64,000 bases of DNA from Micromonospora chaiyaphumensis. Lineage in GTDB: Bacteria; Actinomycetota; Actinomycetes; Mycobacteriales; Micromonosporaceae. The stretch is from contig NZ_FMCS01000008.1 of NCBI RefSeq assembly GCF_900091435.1, positions 124,001-188,000 of the forward strand, in the 5' to 3' direction. Below are positions 1-9,137 of the stretch, piece by piece. Position 1 is the first letter of the stretch. The number at the start of each line of letters is the position of its first letter. The position numbers were made by a program, and so were the translations under genes. Under the pieces are notes generated by a model. That model ran no database searches, was not told the origin of the DNA, and worked only from the letters and a program-made list of their open reading frames with translations.

Positions 1-1821
1 CAGCTCGACCTGGCCCAGAAGACGAAGTTCGGCGACACCACCACCGACCGGATCGAGGCCCAGTTCCCCTACGAGGTGGGCGGCCAGGTCTGGAACGAGG
101 TGCTGGACGCCAAGGCGGCCAACCGGGTCACCGGCCCGGCCGACACCAAGGTCTCCTCGGACAGCATCTGGGTGAGCCTGCTGGTCAACCTCCTGCCCAT
201 CGCGCTGCTGGTGCTCTTGCTGCTGTTCTTCATGTCGCAGATGCAGGGCGGCGGCTCGCGGGTGCTCAACTTCGGCAAGTCCAAGGCGAAGATGATCACC
301 AAGGACACGCCGAAGACCACCTTCGCGGACGTGGCCGGGGCGGACGAGGCCGTCGAGGAACTGCACGAGATCAAGGACTTCCTGCAGAACCCGGCGAAGT
401 ACCAGGCCCTGGGTGCCAAGATCCCGAAGGGCGTGCTGCTCTTCGGCCCGCCCGGCACCGGTAAGACCCTGCTCGCCCGCGCGGTGGCCGGCGAGGCCGG
501 TGTGCCGTTCTACTCGATCTCCGGCTCGGACTTCGTGGAGATGTTCGTCGGTGTCGGCGCCAGCCGGGTCCGCGACCTCTTCGAGCAGGCCAAGTCGAAC
601 GCGCCGGCGATCGTCTTCGTCGACGAGATCGACGCGGTCGGCCGGCACCGCGGCGCCGGCATGGGCGGCGGTCACGACGAGCGGGAGCAGACCCTCAACC
701 AGCTGCTCGTCGAGATGGACGGCTTCGACACCAAGGGCGGCGTCATCCTGATCGCCGCCACCAACCGGCCGGACATCCTCGACCCGGCGCTGCTGCGCCC
801 GGGCCGCTTCGACCGGCAGATCCCGGTCGACGCCCCCGACATGGAGGGCCGCAAGGCCATCCTGCGGGTGCACGCCAAGGGCAAGCCGTTCACGCCCGAC
901 GTCGACCTCGACTCGGTCGCCCGGCGCACCCCCGGCTTCAGCGGCGCCGACCTGGCCAATGTGATCAACGAGTCCGCGCTGCTCACCGCCCGAAAGGACC
1001 AGCGGGCGATCACCAACGACTCCCTGGAGGAGTCGATCGACCGGGTGATCGCCGGTCCGCAGCGCCGGACCCGGGTGATGAGCGACCAGGAGAAGAAGAT
1101 CACCGCGTACCACGAGGGTGGGCATGCGCTGGTCGCCTGGGCGCTGCCGCACGCCGCGCCGGTGCACAAGGTGACCATCCTGTCCCGGGGCCGGTCGCTG
1201 GGCCACACGCTGGTCCTGCCGACCGAGGACAAGTACACCCAGACCCGGGCCGAGATGATCGACACCCTGGCGTACGCGCTGGGTGGCCGGGCCGCCGAGG
1301 AGCTCGTCTTCCACGAGCCCACCACCGGCGCCGGCAACGACATCGAGAAGGCCACGCAGCTGGCCCGCGCGATGATCACGCAGTACGGCATGAGCTCCAA
1401 GCTCGGCGCGATCAAGTACGGCACCAGCGGCGACGAGCCGTTCCTCGGCCGCAACATGGGCCACGAGCGGGACTACTCGGACGCGGTGGCCGCCGAGATC
1501 GACGGCGAGATGCGGGCGCTGATCGAGCTGGCCCACGACGAGGCCTGGGAGATCCTGGTGGAATACCGGGACGTCCTGGACAACATCGTGCTCGAGCTCA
1601 TGGAGAAGGAGACCCTCTCCACGGCCGACATGGCCCGGATCTGCGCCCGGGTGGCGAAGCGCCCGCCGATGGCCCCCTACCACGGCTTCGGCAAGCGCCA
1701 GCCCTCCACCGAGCCGCCCGTGCTCACGCCCGCCGAGAAGGAGACCCTCAAGGCGCAGGCTCAGGCCGACGGCGCCTCGGTCGGCGGGTCGCCCTCGAAC
1801 AACTCGGACGGTACCCACTGA
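1..1821 (+). CDS. ftsH: ATP-dependent zinc metalloprotease FtsH (5' end outside window)
   Basis: Membrane-anchored AAA+ protease that degrades misassembled membrane proteins and some short-lived cytosolic ones. The frame is open from base 1, so the start and first transmembrane segment lie upstream; 606 residues are visible. Seen: a hydrophobic membrane helix (bases ~175-235), Walker A GPPGTGKT (445-468), Walker B VFVDEID, arginine-finger region [17 protein letters not shown], and the zinc site HEGGH at 1111-1125 followed by [11 protein letters not shown]. The C-terminal ~60 residues are hydrophilic and low in complexity, as usual for actinobacterial FtsH. The stop codon runs straight into the folE coding signal, which suggests cotranscription. 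Identification is secure. Confidence 0.98.
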
Positions 1822-2575: not shown

Positions 2576-3277
2576 TCAGCCGGCCAGCATGGCCAGCAGC
2601 AGGCCGGCCGTGGCCAGCACCGCCGGGACCAGGCAGACCAGCGCACCGAAGCGGGGCGTCCGGTCCACGCGGTCGGTCGGTCGGGGCCGGAACAGCCGCC
2701 CCACCGCGAGCCACCCCAGCATGAACGCGACCGCCGGCAGCGGCAGCCCCACCACGAGCGCGAGCAGCGTCACCGCGCCGGTGCCCGTGACCAGGAAGAT
2801 CGCGAGCTGGACCAGCGGGACCAGCAACGCCAGCGGCCCGTAGACCAGCAGGTTGCGGGGATACGCCGGCCAGCGCGCCAACCGGGGCAGGCCGCGCGCG
2901 GCGAGACTGTCGTCCGCCGCGTCCGCCCAGCCCCGGGCGGTGCGCAGCGCGGCCAGCACGGCCGCCGGCCCGGCCGCCATCGACCGGGCCGCCTCGGACA
3001 CCTCCGGCGGCGTCGGCAGCAGCGAGATCGCCGGGACGCCCAGCTCCCGCAGCCGCGACTGCTGCGGGGCGAGGCGCTCGCGGACCGCGGTCAGCTCCTC
3101 CCGGGCGGCCGCCACCGACCGGGCCTGCTCACTGGCGGCGGTCGCCGCGGCCCGGCGTACGCCGTCGAGCTGGCGGGCGGCGGCCACATAGTCCGCCCAG
3201 GCCGCCCCGGCCGGGTCCGGGTCGACCGTCGGGCCGCCGGACCGGGGCGCGGGCACCGCCGTGCCGGTCTCGCTCAC
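2576..3277 (-). CDS. Coiled-coil membrane protein, function unknown
   Basis: A 233-aa protein I do not recognise. Seen: an acidic/proline N-terminus (1-25), a helical, probably coiled-coil cytoplasmic region with Arg/Glu/Gln heptads (~residues 30-80, e.g. REELTAVRERLAPQQSRLRELG), then after ~residue 140 three or four hydrophobic segments (LLVYGPLALLVPLVQLAIFLV, LLALVVGLPLPAVAFMLGWLAV, ALVCLVPAVLATAGLLLAML). The GTG start at 3277 overlaps the TGA of the preceding mini-ORF (GTGA), so it sits at the end of a coupled chain that begins with the FtsK-like gene. AGGAGG lies 4 bases before the GTG. A partner role with the FtsK-like protein is inferred from operon position only. Confidence 0.75.
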   Translation of the reverse strand: MSETGTAVPAPRSGGPTVDPDPAGAAWADYVAAARQLDGVRRAAATAASEQARSVAAAREELTAVRERLAPQQSRLRELGVPAISLLPTPPEVSEAARSMAAGPAAVLAALRTARGWADAADDSLAARGLPRLARWPAYPRNLLVYGPLALLVPLVQLAIFLVTGTGAVTLLALVVGLPLPAVAFMLGWLAVGRLFRPRPTDRVDRTPRFGALVCLVPAVLATAGLLLAMLAG

Positions 3278-3513
3278 GGTGCCTCCTGGGTCCGCGACTG
3301 CGGGGCTCGCAAGACCGGCTCACTCCTCGCGCTCACGATGTCTCCTGGGTTCGCGACTGCGGGGCTCGCAAGACCGGCTCACTCCTCGCGCTCACGATGT
3401 CTCCTGGGTTCGCGACTGCGGGGCTCGCAAGACCGGCTCACTCCTCGCGCTCACGATGTCTCCTGGGTTCGCGACTGCGGGGCTCGCAAGACCGGCTCAC
3501 TCCTCGCGCTCAC
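3274..3513 (-). other. Chain of four translationally coupled 20-codon mini-ORFs
   Basis: Minus-strand ORFs at 3513-3451, 3454-3392, 3395-3333 and 3336-3274, each starting GTGAGC and ending TGA, each overlapping the next by the 4 bases GTGA. The FtsK-like gene stop (3512-3510) overlaps the first GTG, and the last stop (3276-3274) overlaps the GTG of the 233-aa gene at 3277. Each encodes VSARSEPVLRAPQSRTQE plus TS (AP in the last copy). Every unit has its own AGGAG ribosome site. They could pass ribosomes down the operon, or they could be inert spacer DNA that tolerates coupling; nothing shows that the peptides are functional. The layout resembles mycobacterial MIRU elements. Confidence 0.6.
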
Positions 3514-3517
3514 GATG
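3284..3517. repeat. Four tandem copies of a 59-bp repeat carrying coupled mini-ORFs
   Basis: Copies start at 3284, 3343, 3402 and 3461 (the last lacks 2 bases) with an exact 59-bp period. The first copy, next to the downstream gene, has a few substitutions; the others are essentially identical. There are no spacers, so it is not a CRISPR array. On the minus strand each unit contains an AGGAG five bases before a GTG and ends with TCGTGA, in which the stop and the next start overlap. Because 59 is not a multiple of 3, each copy shifts frame and so encodes a separate 20-codon ORF rather than a longer repeat protein. Confidence 0.95.
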
Positions 3518-6020
3518 ATCCCTCCCCGAACGGCACCAGGACCGTGCCCTGCTCGCCGGGGCCGTCCCAGAGCACCGCGCGGCCCGGCCGTGGCCGCCAG
3601 AGCACCGGGCGGTCGAAGAGCTGCTCCAGCCGGGCGCCGGGCACGTCGGTGACCACCACGGCGGTGAGCTTGTCCACCTCGCCCTCGGGACCGAGCAGCC
3701 CGGCCAGCGGGGCCACCGTGCGCCACCAGCCGAGCAGGTGCCGGCCGGCCGGTGGGCCCTCCAGCAGCAGCGCCCGCAGCAGGTCGGGCGGCAGTTCGTT
3801 CGCGTCCGGCACGTCCAGGCCGAACACCACGAGGTAACCCGGCTCGTCCGAGGCCATCGCCGCCCGCAGCCCGGTCACGTCGACGATCTCCACCCGGTGC
3901 CGCCCGGCCAGCTCGGCGGCCAGCACGCCGGCCGGCTCGGCCGACCCGTTGGCCAGCGGCGCCAGCACGAACCGCGTCGCGCCGGGGTGCGCCGCCGCCG
4001 CGCTGCGGACCGCCGTGCCCAGCAGCCGCTCGGCCTCCTCGTCGCGGCCCAGCACGGCCAGGTTCCGGCCGGCGGCCGGCCCGAGCGGCACGGCCACCGT
4101 GGAGCGCCGGACGTCCACCGCCCGGCCGAGCAGGGCGGCGGGCGCGTGCGCCCGCCCGGCCAGCGCGGCCCGGTGCCGCGGGTCGTTGGCGAGCAGCGGG
4201 CGGGCGAACCCGGCGAAGACCACCGGCGGGGCGGTCCCCTCGGGCCGGGCCGACCAGAGCCGGTGCCGCAGGTCGGCGAGGACGGCCGGGTCGTCGTGCG
4301 GGTCGGGGAACCGGATCATCCGTTCGTGGCCCCGGGTCGCGCCGCGCGGGCCGCCCAGCCCACCGGCGGTGTTCACCACGGCGCTGCCCACCGGCAGGCC
4401 GGCCGCCGCGTCGTTGGTCGGCTCCAGCACGGCCGAACCGCCCGGCAGCGCCACCCGCACCGGGAACTGGCCGAGCAGCGGGTCCCGCGGGCCACCGATG
4501 CCGAGGTCGCCCTCGCCGGCCAGGACCAGGTGGATCCCGTACGACCGGGCGGCGCGGGCCAGCCCGTCGAGCCGGGTCAGCAGGTCGGCGGCGAGCCGGT
4601 CCCGCTCGCGCAGCAGCAGCGGGAAGTTGTCGATCACGCAGACGATCCGGGGCAGCGACTGGTGCTGGCGCAGCTCGGCGTAACGCTGCCCGCCGGCCCG
4701 CCGGGCCGCCTCCTCCCGGCGGCGCAGCTCGGCCTCCAGCTCGCCGAGCAGGTCCGCCACGTACTCGCGGTCGGCGGCCATCCCGGCGGCCCGGACCTGC
4801 GGCACCCACGACCGGTCCCGCTCGGTCTGGAGGAACTCCACGAAGGACTCGCCGTCGTCGACGTCGGCCAGGTAGAGGACCAGCTCGTCGGGGCCGTAGC
4901 GGGCGGCCAGGCCGAAGAGCGCGTCGGTGAGGAACGCCGAGCGCCCGGCCTGGGAGCGGCCGCTGACCAGCCAGTGCGGGGTCAGCTCGGTGAAGCCCAG
5001 GCTGACCGGCCGCCCCGCGGCGTCACCGACCGTCGTGGTGAGCCCGTCGACCGAACCCTCCGCCCACAGGTCGCCGGGCAGCAGGTCGGTGAGGGCCAGG
5101 CGGGAGCCGTCCTCGATCTGCCGGACCAGCCGCCGGCACACACCGGTGACCAGCTCGCCGGGCGGATCCTCGTCAAGGAAGACCGGCGAGTTCAGCCCGC
5201 CCGGCGACTCCGCCGCAGGGCTGCTGAAACCGGCGCCGGGCGGGTCACCGACCAGCGCGTACGCGGTGCGCACCGCGAGCGGGGTGGCCTGCGGCAGCGG
5301 CGTACCGGCGGGCCAACCGGCCACCACCAGGTGCAGCCCGGCCCGCGGACCCCGGTCGGCCAGTTCGGCGAGCCGGTCGAGATCGGACGGTGCGACCCCG
5401 TCGGGCAGGGCGGCCACCACCACCAGCAGCGTGCGGTCGTGCCCGCGCTGGCGGGCCGTGCCGGCGGCCACCCACTGCTCGGCCTCGGCCAGCACCGCCC
5501 GGAGCCCGGCCAGGTCGGTGGCGGGCGGCGGCAGCAGGCCCGCGTCGGCCAGCGCCGCGTATCCGGCGAAGGTGGCACCCGAGCCGCCGTCGACCGCGCG
5601 GGCCAGCAGGGCGCCGGCCGGACTGGCCGCGAACAGCCGCAGCAGCAGGGCCCGGAGCAGCCCGGCCACCCTCGGATCGCCGGCGTCGGCGTCGACGCTC
5701 AGATGTCCACTGCCGAGCAGCGGCACGAGGGTGGGGAACCGGGCGTCGTCCAGCGGTGCGGCGACACCGACCCGCACGAAGGCGGGCGGACCGTCTCCCG
5801 GCGCGGTCGTCGGGGTCAGCGTCTCCAGCGGCTCGCCGGCCCAGCCCGGCGCGGCGACCGCCGCCGCGGCACGGAGCCGCTCGGCCAGCTCGTACTGCCG
5901 GTGGTGATCGGCGGGAGCGGGCCGGATCTCGTCGAGGATCCCGGCCGCCGCGGTCGCGGTGGCCTCGGCCCTGCGGTGCAGCGCGGCGGCCCGGCCGGCG
6001 CGCGCCTTCGGACTCGCCAC
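3510..6020 (-). CDS. FtsK/SpoIIIE-like protein with degenerate ATPase motifs
   Basis: An 836-aa protein with the fold pattern of FtsK/EccC-type ATPases. The N-terminal ~330 residues are mainly helical (first ~70) plus an alpha/beta region. The ATPase-like module has GRSQAGRS at residues 354-361, where Walker A lysine is Arg360, and VIDNF at 462-466, where the Walker B glutamate is Asn465. A second module after ~residue 590 (LGPAAGRNLAVLGRDEEAERLL) has no P-loop at all. YGIHLVLAGEG resembles the GIHLVLATQ strand of FtsK proteins. Catalysis is therefore doubtful; it may be a scaffold. Start ATG at 6020. Its stop overlaps the first mini-ORF of the repeat chain. Confidence 0.75.
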   Translation of the reverse strand: MASPKARAGRAAALHRRAEATATAAAGILDEIRPAPADHHRQYELAERLRAAAAVAAPGWAGEPLETLTPTTAPGDGPPAFVRVGVAAPLDDARFPTLVPLLGSGHLSVDADAGDPRVAGLLRALLLRLFAASPAGALLARAVDGGSGATFAGYAALADAGLLPPPATDLAGLRAVLAEAEQWVAAGTARQRGHDRTLLVVVAALPDGVAPSDLDRLAELADRGPRAGLHLVVAGWPAGTPLPQATPLAVRTAYALVGDPPGAGFSSPAAESPGGLNSPVFLDEDPPGELVTGVCRRLVRQIEDGSRLALTDLLPGDLWAEGSVDGLTTTVGDAAGRPVSLGFTELTPHWLVSGRSQAGRSAFLTDALFGLAARYGPDELVLYLADVDDGESFVEFLQTERDRSWVPQVRAAGMAADREYVADLLGELEAELRRREEAARRAGGQRYAELRQHQSLPRIVCVIDNFPLLLRERDRLAADLLTRLDGLARAARSYGIHLVLAGEGDLGIGGPRDPLLGQFPVRVALPGGSAVLEPTNDAAAGLPVGSAVVNTAGGLGGPRGATRGHERMIRFPDPHDDPAVLADLRHRLWSARPEGTAPPVVFAGFARPLLANDPRHRAALAGRAHAPAALLGRAVDVRRSTVAVPLGPAAGRNLAVLGRDEEAERLLGTAVRSAAAAHPGATRFVLAPLANGSAEPAGVLAAELAGRHRVEIVDVTGLRAAMASDEPGYLVVFGLDVPDANELPPDLLRALLLEGPPAGRHLLGWWRTVAPLAGLLGPEGEVDKLTAVVVTDVPGARLEQLFDRPVLWRPRPGRAVLWDGPGEQGTVLVPFGEGSS

Positions 6021-7404: not shown

Positions 7405-8580
7405 TCACGCCGTCCCGTCCACCGGGGCGCCCCGCTCCCGCATGAACGGCACGGGGTTGATCGCCCCCCGGCTGGAGCGGTCGCCCTCCACATGCACCTC
7501 GAAGTGCAGGTGCGGGCCGGAGGAGTTGCCGCTGCTCCCGGAGAGTCCGATCTGGTCGCCGGCCTCCACCATCTGCCCCGGCACGACCTGCGGCCGGTGG
7601 ATCATGTGGCAGTAGCGGGTGATGTAGCCGCCCGCGTGCAGGATGTCGACGAACCAGCCGCAGCCGCCCTTGCCCGGCCAGCCGTCCCGGTCGCAGTCGC
7701 GCTTTCCAGAGTGGTCGGGGTCGCAGCGGGCCACCAGTACCCGACCGGCGGACGCGGCGTGGATCGGCGTCTCCTTGTCGGCGGCGAGGTCGACCCCGTT
7801 GTGGCTGGGCCGCTCGGTGGTGCGGAAGCCCGAGACGACGCCACCGGGGAGCGGGGCGGTCCAGCCGGAGGCGGCGATCCGGGCCCCGGCGGCGGCGTCG
7901 CAGACCGCCTTGCCGTCGATCTCGACGGTCCGGGCCGCCCCGCCCGCGAGGGCGTCCACGATCCGGCCGGCCAGGTCCTCGTGCTTCGCGTAGGCGTCCG
8001 GGAAGGCGCTGACCTGCACCCGCTGCGCCACCACGGTGAGCGGCCGGTGCTGCCAGTCCCGCACCTTGACCAACTTCTCGTAGAACTTTCGGGCCGTGTA
8101 GGACGGGGTCATCCGCTGCTCCACGCTGCCCCACCCGGGCCGCTGCTGGAACAGGCCCAGCGAGTCGTGGTCGGCGCCGACGCCCTCGTGCGGCAGGGCC
8201 AGGGACGCCGGTACCTTCCGGTTCGCCAGGTTGCGCAGCGCGGACTCCTGCATGGCGGTGGCCAGCGCGATGACCCAACCGCGGGCGGGCACCTTCATGT
8301 CCTGGCCGACCTTGACGATGACGGCGGCGTTGCGAAGCTGGGCGTCGCCGTACTCCGTGAAGCGTGGCATGTCCCCGGTGAGGTCGACCTGGTAGGCCGG
8401 GTCGCAGTTCAGGCCGGCGAGCACGCCGTCCTTCTGGTCGCCGCCGAGCTCGGTGAGGAGGAAGGCGCCCGCACCCCCGACGCAGCAGAGCAGGGTGAGC
8501 ACCGTGGTGACCGCGGTGACCAGCACGCCGACCCGCAGCTTGCGGCGGATCGGCGCGGTGACACCGGCCACGGCGCTCAC
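7405..8580 (-). CDS. Two-domain cell-wall hydrolase (lytic transglycosylase-like + M23 peptidase)
   Basis: A 391-aa membrane-anchored enzyme expected to open peptidoglycan. Seen: one membrane helix (residues ~18-42), a lysozyme/SLT-like domain (~85-205) with AMQESALRNL (Glu112 the likely acid) and SLGLFQQRPGWG, and a C-terminal LytM/M23 domain (~240-380) with zinc ligands His260 and Asp264 (HNGVD) and HLHFEVH (His357, His359). Start GTG 8580 overlaps the stop of the preceding gene (GTGA); SAVAGVTAPIRRKL then precedes the helix. This domain pair is what VirB1/Orf14-type hydrolases of Gram-positive conjugation systems use to let the machine cross the wall. Confidence 0.9.
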   Translation of the reverse strand: MSAVAGVTAPIRRKLRVGVLVTAVTTVLTLLCCVGGAGAFLLTELGGDQKDGVLAGLNCDPAYQVDLTGDMPRFTEYGDAQLRNAAVIVKVGQDMKVPARGWVIALATAMQESALRNLANRKVPASLALPHEGVGADHDSLGLFQQRPGWGSVEQRMTPSYTARKFYEKLVKVRDWQHRPLTVVAQRVQVSAFPDAYAKHEDLAGRIVDALAGGAARTVEIDGKAVCDAAAGARIAASGWTAPLPGGVVSGFRTTERPSHNGVDLAADKETPIHAASAGRVLVARCDPDHSGKRDCDRDGWPGKGGCGWFVDILHAGGYITRYCHMIHRPQVVPGQMVEAGDQIGLSGSSGNSSGPHLHFEVHVEGDRSSRGAINPVPFMRERGAPVDGTA

Positions 8581-9137
8581 TGCCGCTCCCAGTCGACCGC
8601 GTCCACCAGCCACCGGCCGTCGGGCGCCACCAGTTCGAGCCGGAGCCGGCCGTCGTCGAGCGGGACCAGCGCCTCCACGAAGGACTCCGTCCGCGCCCGG
8701 AGGGTCACGGCGCCGGTGACCCGCCGCGCGGGCACGGTTTCCGGGTCGGCGCCGGTCATCTTCTCGAGGAGCGCGGGCGTGGAGAGCGGCCGCAGCCGCG
8801 ACTGCCAGGCCTCGGCGGTGCTGCCCGGGCCCGTCAGCCAGGCCGTGGTGAACCGCCCGGCGGTCTGCTCGGGGGTGGCCTCGCCCGGTCGCGTCTTCGG
8901 GGCGACCGCCGCCGGCGGGCTCGACAGCACCCCGTCGTCACCGGCGTGCGGGTCCACGGTGCTGATCGGCTGGCTCGGGCGGGTGCTCAGGCCGAGGGTC
9001 GAGTCGACCGGCCCGGAGACCAGCCGGGCCGCGCCGATCACACCGAAGACCAGGACGGCGATCACCAGCGCGACGCCCAGCCGAGAGCGCAGCACCCGGG
9101 TGAACAGGAACTCCAGCGCCCGCCGCACCGGATTCAC
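8577..9137 (-). CDS. VirB8/TcpC-like single-pass membrane protein
   Basis: 186 aa. Seen: a short basic N-terminus, a membrane helix at ~20-40 (GVALVIAVLVFGVIGAARLV), a Pro/Ser linker (45-90), then a ~95-residue domain starting TPEQTAGRFTTAWL that fits the NTF2-like fold of VirB8/TcpC and ends LVAPDGRWLVDAVDWERQ. Start GTG 9137 overlaps the upstream stop (GTGA). It lies between the VirB6-like and hydrolase genes, where VirB8-like subunits of Gram-positive systems often occur. The family call rests on architecture and context; identity of individual residues is not decisive. Confidence 0.65.
   Translation of the reverse strand: MNPVRRALEFLFTRVLRSRLGVALVIAVLVFGVIGAARLVSGPVDSTLGLSTRPSQPISTVDPHAGDDGVLSSPPAAVAPKTRPGEATPEQTAGRFTTAWLTGPGSTAEAWQSRLRPLSTPALLEKMTGADPETVPARRVTGAVTLRARTESFVEALVPLDDGRLRLELVAPDGRWLVDAVDWERQ

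Follow-up and report, generated by a model that had tools for sequence, protein, structure and literature searches.

The window analysed here, a stretch of 64,000 nucleotides of Micromonospora chaiyaphumensis DNA, contains four short repeats in tandem between two minus-strand genes, and the locus raises the question of what this array is and how it came to lie there. The TRF analysis indicated a 59-bp period with 4.2 copies and 98% matches at window positions 3271-3517. The unit as read on the minus strand is GTGAGCGCGAGGAGTGAGCCGGTCTTGCGAGCCCCGCAGTCGCGAACCCAGGAGACATC, repeating from 3513 to 3278. An earlier note on this DNA had described four exact copies; four 59-bp units are indeed present, but only three of them are identical, and the gene-proximal unit carries three substitutions within its last 20 nt. 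Its account of 20-codon GTG mini-ORFs with AGGAG, joined into six cistrons by five GTGA overlaps, agrees with the coordinates on the minus strand (Table 1). The AGGAG motif stands 5 nt upstream of each next GTG, and the chain of overlaps runs from the FtsK/EccC-like gene through the four mini-ORFs to the membrane-protein gene. Each unit also has an internal GTGAGC (3323, 3382, 3441, and 3500, minus strand), from which a second, interleaved ladder of mostly 20-codon ORFs arises in another frame.

Table 1. The repeat array, the genes it joins, and the flanks of the locus (window coordinates).
Feature	Position	Strand	Remarks
FtsH-like AAA/M41 protease gene	76..1821	+	locus flank
P0001, downstream gene	2576..3277	-	233-aa predicted membrane protein
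Repeat unit 4, 59 bp	3278..3336	-	three substitutions; mini-ORF 3274-3336, 20 codons, GTG start; stop overlaps P0001 start, GTGA 3274-3277
Repeat unit 3, 59 bp	3337..3395	-	same as unit 1; mini-ORF 3333-3395, 20 codons, GTG start; overlap with next start, GTGA 3333-3336
Repeat unit 2, 59 bp	3396..3454	-	same as unit 1; mini-ORF 3392-3454, 20 codons, GTG start; overlap with next start, GTGA 3392-3395
Repeat unit 1, 59 bp	3455..3513	-	mini-ORF 3451-3513, 20 codons, GTG start; overlap with next start, GTGA 3451-3454
P0002, upstream gene	3510..6020	-	FtsK/SpoIIIE domain, EccC-like; TGA stop inside GTGA 3510-3513
M23 peptidase gene	7405..8613	-	locus flank

When the array was used as the query against its own genome, 27 dispersed matches were obtained, and the 15-base left end of the unit occurs there exactly 23 times, the window units counted in. 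Of 301 Micromonosporaceae genomes, 145 contain the exact 19-base core; the reversed-pattern control gave zero matches in the same set. Every sampled Micromonospora genome contains the core, in 2-49 copies each, and it is rare in other genera of the family; the named carriers include many Micromonospora, as well as Plantactinospora, Phytohabitans, Catellatospora, and Planosporangium. Among 299 genomes sampled across the order, the exact core was absent from the approximately 240 that lie outside Micromonosporaceae. The class-wide search likewise gave no match in the same order beyond this family, and weaker homologues came from two genomes of a single genus of f52, another actinobacterial family, and from one genome of a further family (f49). 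Carriage on a plasmid was seen in one record, M. terminaliae pLB1, with a unit at the plsC/gpsA junction, and phage records gave no match to the repeat. As the unit is dispersed across the family and reversed-pattern controls gave zero matches, chance or a mere VNTR was ruled out. The core sequence was not found printed in the open-access literature searched, and nothing relevant on Micromonospora or Micromonosporaceae repeats stood among the titles listed.

The search of Micromonosporaceae genomes for the unit, which the earlier note had proposed, found dispersed copies that stand overwhelmingly ahead of gene starts. At 165 of 177 distinct sites, a same-strand gene start (an ORF of at least 70 codons with a GC3 of at least 0.82) follows 8-33 nt after the core, compared with 28 for the opposite direction. 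A TGA directly precedes 180 of 196 copies (168 GTGA, 12 ATGA), and at 117 of the 177 sites an upstream coding ORF of at least 50 codons ends at this left TGA. In a RefSeq-annotated record, the end of plsC is the TGA of the unit and gpsA starts 59 bp past the unit start; since this annotation is independent of our analysis, it backs the placement of the unit between the two genes. Exceptions to the start-codon position include one copy that interrupts a promoter-like region (L017) and one after a stop codon (L018). At two further loci (L016, and L426 in genome G116), a deletion of 2 bases seemingly removed the native ATG, and the gene now reads in frame from the GTG of the element, an apparent capture of a new start with an N-terminal extension of roughly 20 aa. 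Three copies (L119, L131, and L154) have an extra hairpin-like stretch of ~25-30 nt between the left end and the core.

The history of the window junction could be followed in relatives, as an orthologue of P0001 is present in 110 of the 111 Micromonospora genomes searched. Of 106 readable orthologous junctions, four contain units (one each of 1, 2, 3, and 4) and three have some other insertion at this xTGA, the majority of the rest being empty; the copy number thus ranges from 0 through 1, 2, and 3 to 4 among different species. In the nearest relatives, with P0001 93-94% identical, the junction is empty and the overlap is ATGA, which indicates that the window array is a recent event. Empty alleles were also found in close relatives at other sites, among them the following (the slash marks the junction): TGTGCGCC/ATGAGC at bioF-bioD, ACCGA/GTGAGCGGG at plsC-gpsA, CCTC/GTGACCGACC at a further site of the own genome, and GGCTGGTGCC/GTGAGCGAACC (junction GGTGCC/GTGAGCGAACC) at a leaderless-like promoter and start. 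When filled and empty sites are compared, the native start and the next codons are intact at the right and the native upstream bases at the left. GTGAGC stands on the left even at sites with a native ATG start or with a next codon other than AGC, and it therefore belongs to the element.

One copy (L010) stands at a leaderless-like start without an upstream gene end, and relatives are empty there. Because copies occur at such starts too, the target is the start site and not the stop/start overlap as such. The earlier note had derived the array from a cassette flanked by GTGA that entered an ancestral GTGA overlap and was then amplified. Insertion at an ancestral xTGA start site followed by local amplification is supported by the empty and the 1-4-unit orthologous junctions; the restriction to GTGA overlaps has to be dropped, since the start is the target and the empty site of the nearest relatives is ATGA. 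The bases before xTGA are duplicated above chance at positions -1 to -4 (z 9.1, 3.6, 5.2, and 4.0). The size of the duplication varies, averaging ~4-5 nt plus xTGA, with 9-13 bases at a few sites and none at others, and we therefore claim no fixed target-site duplication, which is unsupported across sites. At one site (L005) and its orthologues (L306-L335), the 9-base stretch ahead of the start (GGAGGCACA or GGAGGCCCA) matches on both sides of the unit within each species and differs among species, a pattern suggesting repeated insertion or gene conversion.

Tandem arrays of 1-4 units were seen across the sampled genomes. The spacers of neighbouring units are 0.98 identical, compared with 0.43 between arrays, which indicates that arrays grow via local duplication and not by repeated insertion. 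No inverted repeats were detected in the unit, the ends of which (GTGAGCGCGAGG... and ...CGAACNNAGG) are unlike each other, and a MITE with terminal inverted repeats was rejected. No transposase was found for the element.

The variation in copy number among species would also be expected if the array were an adaptive rheostat, in which the number of mini-cistrons sets the output of the membrane protein relative to the FtsK-like protein, and each unit, if translated, would add one termination-reinitiation step. We consider this improbable, as any unit at all is present in only 4 of the 106 orthologous junctions, units elsewhere precede functionally unrelated genes, and no link between copy number and function emerged, while a spreading element would account for the distribution. 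Expression may be tuned by copy number, though nothing here favours this over the nearly neutral spread of an element.

A set of 83 independent downstream genes showed what the units have in common. Measured from the start of the unit to that of the gene, the distance was 2 mod 3 in 66 of them, 0 in 15, and 1 in 2, and the unit stop overlapped the gene start by exactly 4 nt in 64; these counts are not fully independent, since many 59-bp copies and copies of one subfamily share descent. With the founder (commonest) length of 59 excluded, the classes were 26:15:2 (chi-square P 4e-5). Frame 0, a read-through that would fuse the unit to the downstream gene, is common (15 of the 83 terminal units and about 40% of the internal ones). 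Frame 1, which would enter the gene out of frame, appears to be avoided. In one subfamily, a left part of 17 nt goes with a right part of 16 nt, and in the other, 22 nt goes with 14 nt; as the length of the right part compensates for that of the left, units of 56 and 59 both retain the overlap. The two subfamilies read one core in different frames, and diversity is equal at all three codon positions (0.062/0.066/0.064). Frame classes, length compensation, and equal diversity together suggest that the overlap, and not the peptide, is the conserved thing.

A second repeat family shows the same arrangement. It begins with GTGAGC GAGCGGAGCGAGCGAACCA (GTGAGCGAGCGGAGCGAGCGAACCA...), sits at xTGA starts, including an orthologue of the window junction (L203), and occurs in 14 of 61 Micromonospora genomes in up to 8 copies (L203, L447, and L458-L477). 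Most copies are 80 bp long, with a 27-codon ORF, the stop of which overlaps a GTGA or ATGA start by -4. Two further loci (L204 and L217) look like relatives of this family. Most of the distant f52 homologues also retain the coupled overlap, with units of 56 bp and 89 bp (L485, L487, L490, and L491 in genomes G778 and G852); it is not kept in an array of 90-bp units (L484).

The equal diversity at the three codon positions, together with conservation at the nucleotide level and a single length common to most copies, is also what untranslated intercistronic DNA or RNA, acting as a hairpin or a spacer, would show, with the frame as a by-product of a fixed element length. This is unlikely in our opinion: the length variants 53, 56, and 62 retain the overlap and frame 1 hardly occurs, right-end length offsets left-end length between subfamilies, and the second family and the distant homologues retain the overlap at other lengths. 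The family consensus has a modest hairpin; the unit folds no better than shuffles (z -0.72), and a structured RNA was rejected. The mini-ORF can hardly be a functional peptide, with the element as a small gene family, since third-position variation is not in excess, the frame in which the core is read differs among the two subfamilies and the f52 homologue, so that their peptides would differ, and no family match was obtained. In favour of a peptide, this ORF is open in every one of the 62 independent long-form units, of which 62 and 59 have the other two frames closed.

We consider it likely that the window array arose by local amplification of one copy of a dispersed, mobile miniature element, which nests a coupled mini-cistron at start codons in the manner of the mycobacterial interspersed repetitive units (MIRUs), reportedly described by Supply et al. 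in 1997. This reading draws on the dispersal, target site, empty sites, frame conservation, and local amplification as they appear in the compared sequences. An insertion enzyme would place the element of about 55-60 bp directly ahead of a native start; in most cases that start forms part of an xTGA stop/start overlap, and in some it is leaderless-like. As the element begins with GTGA, the upstream gene keeps its TGA. The ORF of 19-21 codons would take over the native ribosome-binding site, its stop falls within the GTGA/ATGA at the start of the downstream gene, and the element supplies that gene with a new AAGG/AGGAG motif. Translation and reinitiation would be expected from what is established for overlapping stop and start codons. 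If the mini-ORF is translated, ribosomes would cross the junction by termination-reinitiation, from the first gene through the mini-ORF into the second, and both the insertion and each tandem duplication would therefore cost little and be nearly neutral. Because the mini-ORF stop overlaps the next start, the repeat could land between two genes and break neither.

More tentatively, and with somewhat less confidence than an even chance, start-codon nesting may be a general strategy. Several actinobacterial miniature elements, counting at least two families in Micromonospora and the distant homologues in another family, would then carry a mini-cistron of 2 mod 3 and move by a mechanism so far undescribed, which targets start sites and works without terminal inverted repeats. 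With a length of 2 mod 3, translational coupling would survive both insertion at an xTGA start and subsequent amplification. Related species of Micromonospora, in which the junction naturally contains 0 to 4 units, offer a good setting for studying reinitiation chains. Annotators should be cautious, since units shift or extend gene starts, as in the apparent N-terminal capture described above (L016).

Among known systems, YPAL/RU-2 and other bacterial MITE-like repeats (PMC2229807) are likewise short, non-autonomous, and dispersed, with evidence from filled and empty sites. The target duplications of YPAL vary in size (3-26 bp; PMC2229807), as do those at the Micromonospora repeat. In contrast to these repeats, the latter shows no detected inverted repeats, strongly prefers start codons, and carries a coupled mini-ORF. 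A 2025 review (PMC12548453) places MIRU insertion at start codons, with an ORF coupled at -4 nt and minimal gene impact, and the analogy drawn in the earlier note holds in this respect. The senX3-regX3 MIRUs (PMC4213456) have 77- and 53-bp units, and their only reported carriers are M. leprae and the M. tuberculosis complex, whereas the repeat studied here belongs to a different genus, has units of 56-62 bp, and is present in every Micromonospora sampled. Both are short, dispersed, tandemly repeated, apparently mobile, and variable in copy number. In Micromonospora, interspersed units form tandem arrays (1-4 units, and from 0 to 4 at a single junction), the comparison of empty with filled orthologous sites points to mobility and start-codon insertion, and the internal ORF overlaps the downstream start at -4 nt (64 of 83 independent downstream genes). 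The Micromonospora repeat thus appears to work like a MIRU on every feature compared; we do not class it as one, since the likeness lies in architecture as described and not in a direct sequence comparison. The exact core is absent from the genomes sampled in the order's other families. MIRUs have so far been regarded as a mycobacterial peculiarity. A second widespread system with another sequence and the same architecture suggests repeated use of translational coupling for harmless intergenic insertion.
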